64,000 nt of DNA from Paludibacteraceae bacterium (GTDB lineage Bacteria; Bacteroidota; Bacteroidia; Bacteroidales; Paludibacteraceae): NCBI GenBank assembly GCA_017647145.1, contig JAGCLD010000034.1, positions 92,838 to 156,837 of the forward strand, read 5' to 3'. Below are positions 32,388 through 33,220 of this stretch, one piece after another. Below the pieces are notes generated by a model, which saw only the letters and a program-made list of their open reading frames with translations, had not been told where the DNA came from and made no database searches. The position numbers and the translations under genes were made by a program. Position 1 is the stretch's first letter; every line of letters starts with the position of its first letter.

Positions 32388-32395
32388 TACCTTTG
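32388..32395 (+). promoter_or_regulatory. Promoter -7 box upstream of the folded leader
   Basis: TACCTTTG, an exact match to TAnnTTTG, with only a T-run in place of the -33 TTG. Transcription should start near 32402, giving a leader of about 300 bases that includes the structure at 32480-32651. No second box was seen closer to the structure. Confidence 0.7.
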
Positions 32396-32479: not shown

Positions 32480-32651
32480 AGAAGGCGTTACGTATTTATT
32501 CTTGTCTTTGAAACTTAGGAACTTTCACATGCTACCAAGGGTAATACACGATAACGTTCACGTTATGGGCGTGGACTATATTCGTATATTTGGTAGTAAG
32601 GGTTTCCTAAGACCTCAAAGACAAATATTCCGGATAGAGTTCTCGCCTTCT
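32480..32651 (+). ncRNA. Candidate structured RNA leader of the FISUMP gene
   Basis: A long rod of nested helices can be read directly. P1: AGAAGGCG 32480-32487 with CGCCTTCT 32644-32651. P2: TTGTCTTTGA 32502-32511 with TCAAAGACAA 32615-32624. P3: CTTAGGAA 32514-32521 with TTCCTAAG 32604-32611. P4: GCTACCAA 32531-32538 with TTGGTAGT 32590-32597. Inside P4 is a hairpin, CACG-ATAACG 32547-32556 with CGTTAT 32561-32566 and CGTG 32570-32573, and a small TATA-TTCG-TATA hairpin. P1 and P2 are separated by an asymmetric 14 by 19 base bubble. It ends 53 bases before the FISUMP start with no terminator between. I recognise no known riboswitch; a 6S-like RNA is an alternative. Confidence 0.75.
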
Positions 32652-32704
32652 TAATTCTTAGACAAGCCAACTCAACCACTAACCCAATCTAAATACTACC
32701 ATCA

Positions 32705-33220
32705 ATGAAACAAGGATTCCTCAACAATCATGCATGGATTGACCTTGGACTGTCGGTCAAATGGGCGACATGTAATATCGGAACTGATAAACCTGAACAA
32801 ATCGGAAAACACTATGCATGGGGTGAAATGCAAGACAAGTCACCACATCTCTACACGCTTGACCACTATCAATATACAGGGGATGTGGTGAGCATGCTAT
32901 GGGGAGAAGGCTGGAGACTGCCAACCCTCAAGGAACAAGAAGAACTGCTGAACAAATGTGAGTGGATATGGACACGTAATGAATACAGCTGTGGATTCAC
33001 CATTATAGGACCTAATCACAACTCTATTTTCCTCCCGGCAGCAGGACTACACTGTGGAAAAGGACTGGTGGCACTCTCACAACAAGGCACTTACTGGAGC
33101 GAAACATTGCTGCAGGCAGATAATAGTTATGCCTACTACTTGCACTTCACACCCGGTGAGAGAAAATGGAAAATCAGCAGATACTTTTACGGAAGAAGCA
33201 TCAGGCCCGTATGTGTCTGA
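32705..33220 (+). CDS. FISUMP domain protein (Fibrobacter succinogenes major paralogous domain)
   Basis: A 171-residue protein that is almost exactly one FISUMP domain: HAWIDLGLSVKWATCNIG, an HYAWGE segment, GWRLPTLKEQEELLNKC, FLPAAGLHCGKG and the closing GRSIRPVCV. These domains are usually carried by exported lipoproteins. Here there is no signal peptide, so the protein as read would be cytoplasmic, or the true start may differ. Function of the family is unknown. It is monocistronic and preceded by a long folded leader, which suggests post-transcriptional control. Confidence 0.82.
   Translation: MKQGFLNNHAWIDLGLSVKWATCNIGTDKPEQIGKHYAWGEMQDKSPHLYTLDHYQYTGDVVSMLWGEGWRLPTLKEQEELLNKCEWIWTRNEYSCGFTIIGPNHNSIFLPAAGLHCGKGLVALSQQGTYWSETLLQADNSYAYYLHFTPGERKWKISRYFYGRSIRPVCV

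Follow-up and report, generated by a model that had tools for sequence, protein, structure and literature searches.

A family of leader RNAs with a putative bistable switch ahead of unrelated genes in Bacteroidota and Kiritimatiellota

A stretch of 172 nucleotides just upstream of a FISUMP-like gene in a Paludibacteraceae genome is predicted to form a long, nested RNA structure, which raises the question of whether it is a regulatory leader and, if so, of what kind. An earlier note, made from the letters alone, had read it mainly as an unrecognised structured leader of that gene. Here, we describe the element within its window (the whole stretch of 64,000 nucleotides that was analyzed; all features below lie on its forward strand) together with the RNA family to which it belongs.

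RESULTS

A long rod-shaped fold lies between a promoter box and a FISUMP-like gene

The segment at 32480 to 32651 had a predicted minimum free energy of -61.4 kcal/mol, compared with -35.5 ± 4.0 kcal/mol in dinucleotide shuffles (z = -6.55; matched by 0 of 200 shuffles), so the set of nested helices reported there does go beyond chance. Both of the flanking features that had been pointed out were recovered as well: an exact -7 promoter box of the Bacteroidota type (TAnnTTTG), TACCTTTG, at 32388 to 32395, 107 nt 5' of helix P2, and the start of a FISUMP-like open reading frame of 171 amino acids at 32705 to 33220, which is the presumed regulated gene. In the window fold, the outermost helix of the earlier note, P1, joins 32480 to 32487 with 32644 to 32651. 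Inside it lies a rod, in which P2 (32502 to 32511 with 32615 to 32624) is followed by a core helix (CUUAGGA at 32514 to 32520 with UCCUAAG at 32605 to 32611), by P3 (32531 to 32538 with 32590 to 32597), and by an apical stem-loop at 32556 to 32576, made of an arm X' (32556 to 32564), a loop, and a 3' arm (32568 to 32576).

Searches against known RNAs gave no assignment. Rfam 15, which includes 6S, had no match at its gathering score in the window, nor over the element in the loci of 18 and of 20 relatives, and at E ≤ 10 around the window it gave only chance matches, none of which overlapped the rod. ARAGORN found no tRNA or tmRNA in the 64-kb window. The family appears undescribed by its absence from Rfam 15, through which alone the motifs of Weinberg and colleagues (2017) were compared.

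The element recurs in many copies and in two phyla

Searching at the DNA level recovered related leaders from other genera, including a pair in one genome that are 96% alike. We then compared the pattern of their shared letters with genome contigs and obtained at least 118 stretches, the taxa among the matches listed being Bacteroidales, Sphingobacteriales, Chitinophagaceae, Flavobacterium, Kiritimatiellota, and one Lentisphaeraceae bin. A few matches were chance hits inside genes, such as one in Sporomusa (L064), judged by its open reading frame and excluded; a match on a viral contig was likewise a chance match within a phage gene.

Within the window's family, a first covariance model (R1) detected the element in 144 of 200 genomes, and within its phylum in 36 of 395. 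With a second model (R2), made from a less biased alignment, the window's genome held 12 copies, two of them weaker than an E-value of 0.001 (the E-values of both models are rough), and the copy in the window scored highest among them (99.5 bits). R2 also found 38 and 23 copies in the genomes of two relatives and 14 and 25 copies in two genomes of Kiritimatiellota, a phylum in which 14 of 145 genomes carried the element. The leader RNA family spans two phyla at up to 38 copies per genome, and its copies stand ahead of many unrelated accessory genes.

Compensatory changes support the rod and its two internal loops

The covariance search proposed for such leaders returned many homologues with compensatory changes. 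We counted base pairs in 59 aligned copies, including one reverse-strand and one partial match; 96.1% of the cells were paired, and two-sided changes were seen at 23 of 25 pairs, in an alignment that was fitted to the covariance model and thus somewhat favors the structure. The covariation score was 0.74, compared with 0.23 in shuffled alignments (0 of 500) and 0.13 at most when the structure was slid along the alignment. Permutation tests, which are independent of the alignment, gave z = -35 for P2 and z = -25.3 for P3 when each arm was paired with its own rather than a permuted partner. Two-sided changes occurred at 7/7 modeled pairs of P2 (98.3% of cells paired), at 7/7 pairs of the core helix among paralogs (99% paired), and at 7/7 pairs of the apical stem (helix 5 of alignment A4; 98.7% paired). 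These changes exceed both the shuffled and the slid controls and show that a structured RNA is conserved, rather than DNA or coding sequence. Compensatory change in homologous leaders thus holds for P2, the core helix, P3, and the apical stem. It does not firmly extend to P1, whose signal in the family (z = -4.6) counted the U-tract described below and was gone without it, so P1 is weakly supported as a part of the family.

The most constant letters are unpaired and form two internal loops. In the first, AA at 32512 to 32513 (both A's in 87/87 aligned copies) faces ACC at 32612 to 32614 (the two C's in 84/87 and 86/87 copies). In the second, the window's ACUUU at 32521 to 32525, A(A/C)UUU in the family (A in 86/87, UUU in 95 to 99%), faces a GG(U) motif at 32600 to 32604 (in consensus columns, G 83/86 and U 81/86). 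An apparently invariant CUUAGGAACUUU...CCUAAGAC in the core helix proved to be an artefact: the search pattern had imposed its letters, and paralogs found by the covariance model vary there, for example, CUUCGAC/GUCGAAG and GUUUGGCG/CGCCAAAC.

Some copies (L222, L229, L243, L248, L249, and L379) form a subtype whose apical stem carries a large insertion of about 50 nt. Two of these, L248 and L249, share one genome and are 85% alike over the rod, with unrelated genes behind them. A SAM-II riboswitch (long loop) match of 56.8 bits lies at L249:2784-2843, about 0.6 to 0.8 kb from another leader copy of the same genome.

Copies carry a promoter, a U-tract, and a gene on the same strand

Of 149 nonredundant upstream regions, 120 had a TAnnTTTG box, mostly 50 to 130 nt 5' of P2; shuffles gave about 18, and the opposite strand gave 38. 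On the other side of the rod, 162 of 168 copies showed a U-tract no more than 45 nt from P2, compared with 81 in shuffles. The downstream gene was on the same strand at 88 of 106 loci, as was the preceding gene at 58 of 110, and the start codon lay mostly 60 to 130 nt 3' of P2. Together, the enrichment of promoter box and U-tract, the strand of the next gene, and the distance to its start codon indicate a leader with its own promoter. With this fixed orientation and short gap, a cis-regulatory role is strongly supported by the arrangement of the loci as the probable function, in keeping with the main reading of the earlier note.

The window copy departs from its relatives at the U-tract, with only CGCC-TTCTTAATTCTT remaining at 32648 to 32659. 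The claim that the structure is followed by no terminator is thus right for this copy and does not carry over to its relatives. Termination at the window copy may be weak or lost, and the FISUMP-like gene may, through decay of the tract, have lost this control. The degenerate tract also explains why the terminator and the switch described below, the most telling features of the family, had been missed.

Two further conserved segments were seen upstream. A GACATATT-like motif occurs about 30 to 40 nt 5' of P2 in 48 of the 149 upstream regions, and the Kiritimatiellota copies L350 to L377 share, 60 nt 5' of the rod, a TATnCTA box and a hairpin containing GGGAGAGCC.

A predicted second partner, next to the U-tract, for one arm of the apical stem

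We compared, in 74 dissimilar copies, the 16 nt directly 5' of the U-tract (segment Y; 32632 to 32647 in the window) with segment X (32567 to 32583), the 3' side of the apical stem and otherwise the partner of X'. Y was far more complementary to the X of its own copy than to X segments from other copies (z = -12.9, a value that ignores relatedness), and in the window copy, the two would pair with -17.2 kcal/mol. Other segments tried as partners of Y in these copies, apart from the segment Z named below, stayed within about 4.3 standard deviations, with no signal from the 5' region; having been handled in the same way, they argue against relatedness as the cause of the X:Y signal. The 5' arm of P1, also tried as a partner, gave no signal, or a weak one once the U-tract was included. 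The X:Y signal held among the paralogs of a single genome with 33 copies (z = -7.3). Y had a secondary complementary segment in the 74 copies, Z (z = -7.6), which lies 20 to 46 nt beyond the point where the U-tract begins.

The Kiritimatiellota copies gave the X:Y signal independently (z = -9.3), with duplexes of -16 to -33 kcal/mol that end at the U-tract and reach up to 18 unbroken pairs. The start codon in these copies often directly follows the U-tract, and Y has, by reading of the sequence, purine-rich letters resembling a Shine-Dalgarno stretch. Given its complementarity to Y, X could occupy either the rod or a helix that would act as a terminator or block the start site. The combination of X:Y complementarity with a U-tract is what an attenuator or the expression platform of a riboswitch would be expected to have, and X:Y is the predicted stem of a putative intrinsic terminator in the relatives, its U-tract being degenerate in the window copy. 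Sequence evidence thus supports a bistable switch. The rod has the lower predicted energy of the two folds, with a median gap to X:Y of 15 kcal/mol (in the window copy, -61.5 against -53.3, i.e., 8 kcal/mol apart), suggesting that a trigger, folding kinetics, or a protein would be needed to tip the balance toward X:Y.

Another possible alternative pairing was seen in the Bacteroides-type copies L021, L039, L097, and L126, in which CTTAGGATAC, roughly 40 nt beyond the U-tract, has its complement in GTATCCTAAG, the 3' arm of the core helix.

Leaders and downstream genes have been re-assorted

The genes behind the copies encode BspA-like leucine-rich repeat, FISUMP (TIGR02145), and GLUG proteins, lipoproteins, EcoRI- and MmeI-type methyltransferases, small HTH proteins, and acyltransferases; in Kiritimatiellota, judged by sequence reading only, they encode HsdM-like, restriction-like, acyltransferase-like, and secreted proteins. 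We failed to find any function or pathway common to the genes behind the copies, and these genes therefore give no hint of a ligand. By a crude heuristic, starts resembling a signal peptide or lipobox were slightly enriched among them (81/145, compared with 108/298 neighbors).

For one small HTH protein, 17 homologues were compared across six genomes; 9 of them stand behind an R1 match, and at least three more (one being L378) stand behind a rod that R1 missed. Two EcoRI-type methyltransferase genes (L025 and L247) have both retained a leader, with diverged leader sequences. Conversely, the leaders L212 and L213 are 96% alike and have unrelated genes behind them. Diverged leaders on related genes and near-identical leaders on unrelated ones indicate that leader and gene have been re-assorted.

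A conserved open reading frame for a small protein (68 to 72 amino acids, one of 88) follows the Sphingobacteria/Chitinophagaceae-type copies L011, L013, L014, L046, L048, L052, L087, L093, L101, L117, and L122, on the same strand and about 70 nt past the rod. The members tested had no Pfam match above the cut-off.

DISCUSSION

Our results are best explained if the structure in the window belongs to an undescribed class of cis-regulatory leader RNAs that are bistable and respond to some trigger, a reading to which we give a probability of about two in three. Transcription from the promoter would yield a long rod (P2, core, P3, and the apical X':X) with its two conserved internal loops, and X would have a second partner, Y, just 5' of the U-tract or, in Kiritimatiellota, of the U-tract and start codon. 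As long as X is held in the rod, the gene would be read. Pairing of X with Y would produce a terminator-like hairpin at the U-tract, which in Kiritimatiellota would also cover the Shine-Dalgarno-like stretch, and pairing of Y with Z, just downstream, would keep Y off X and leave X free. A factor binding the conserved loops, possibly a metabolite or a protein, would set the balance. The family, its covariation, the enrichment of promoter and U-tract, the same-strand gene, and the X:Y and Y:Z complementarities are direct observations; from them, we infer that the alternative pairings compete in vivo, that control runs in this direction, and that a ligand exists. Several points speak against this reading, namely the energy gap in favor of the rod, the lack of a common pathway among the downstream genes, an X:Y loop of about 60 nt, which is long for an intrinsic terminator, and the degenerate U-tract of the window copy.

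That energy gap would be expected if the leader were static, with the rod merely shielding the mRNA or providing a site for processing or loading, and with X:Y arising as a by-product of similar GC-rich arms. Y does resemble X', as it should if both pair with X. We consider a static leader rather unlikely, as it does not account for the preference of Y for its own X, for the 16 to 18 nt of X:Y pairing in Kiritimatiellota, which exceed the short apical stem, or for the fixed position of the U-tract. A trans-acting small RNA ending at the U-tract, with the next gene incidental, would have its own promoter and U-tract in the same way, and a discrete RNA of about 170 to 250 nt is plausible. This is quite improbable in view of the strand bias, which is confined to the next gene, the narrow range of start-codon distances, the many diverged copies per genome, and the start codons directly after the U-tract in Kiritimatiellota. 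The 6S-like promoter mimic suggested earlier, which would bind RNA polymerase, was based on the resemblance of TGTCTTTG in P2 to the -7 box. It fails because the window's genome has its sole Bacteroidales-1/6S (RF01693) match elsewhere (G000:C9:11675-11857, 71.9 bits, above the cut-off) and holds 12 copies of the element, and because P2, including TGTCTTTG, varies freely among copies of the family; with no Rfam match over the element either, we regard this reading as almost certainly wrong.

The number of copies, up to 38 per genome, would also fit a mobile repeat acting at the level of DNA (MITE- or REP-like), with a hairpin for transposition, as would the sharply bounded stretch of about 230 bp that L212 and L213 share between unrelated flanks and genes, its 96% identity being over the rod. 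As the whole explanation, it is very improbable, given that all helices of the rod covary at high divergence, that the orientation relative to the next gene is fixed, and that the element carries a promoter and a U-tract. Mobility and regulation of the leader are not mutually exclusive. The one locus compared for a precise empty site (L213 with G097) was rearranged and showed none, and two queries against plasmid and phage collections found no similar DNA. Retrons and integron attC sites were rejected from the neighboring genes alone, among which neither a reverse transcriptase nor an integrase nor a cassette array was seen.

A further idea, possible but doubtful at present, is that the leader represents a new class of sensor RNA in Bacteroidota and Kiritimatiellota that places dozens of unrelated genes per genome under one signal, the leader cassette being copied from gene to gene. 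Acquired genes would then join a common RNA-controlled regulon of surface, secreted, and DNA-modification genes. The class is common in gut and rumen Bacteroidota while absent from Rfam 15, and its readable on/off platform could lead to the signal that governs surface and restriction/methylation genes, offering a direct handle for finding it, with a single hairpin defining a testable regulon.

Among known RNAs, Bacteroidales-1/6S (RF01693) is likewise structured, of comparable length, and found in Bacteroidales but differs in sequence, structure, and genomic site. DUF805b (RF02914) is a short 5'-leader motif found, in the same genomes, just before start codons. In several copies, it occupies the gap from the U-tract to the start codon, with no match in the window; however, it is only 35 nt long, lies outside the rod, and often occurs without one, and we rejected it as a part of the element, since it is a separate motif located 3' of the U-tract or elsewhere. 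A catalogue of 3161 microbiome RNA motifs (PMC8040213) describes several that are palindromic and terminator-like in Bacteroidetes, and 15 that lie in potential 5' UTRs, upstream of HTH_XRE genes. Compared by description only, it may include fragments of this leader family, the common point being small HTH genes downstream; passages of its main text present the candidates as catalogue entries and do not describe the class, the switch, or the link to Kiritimatiellota (PMC8040213). In its logic, the element resembles trp-type attenuators and riboswitch platforms, as generally known, with a series of helices that exclude one another (X':X, X:Y with the U-tract, and Y:Z) before a gene, but the contested arm X here sits at the tip of a long rod, and the downstream genes are mutually unrelated. 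To our knowledge, riboswitch-like RNAs seldom reach dozens of copies per genome, and the known ones ahead of unrelated genes sense global signals, as the c-di-GMP riboswitches do.
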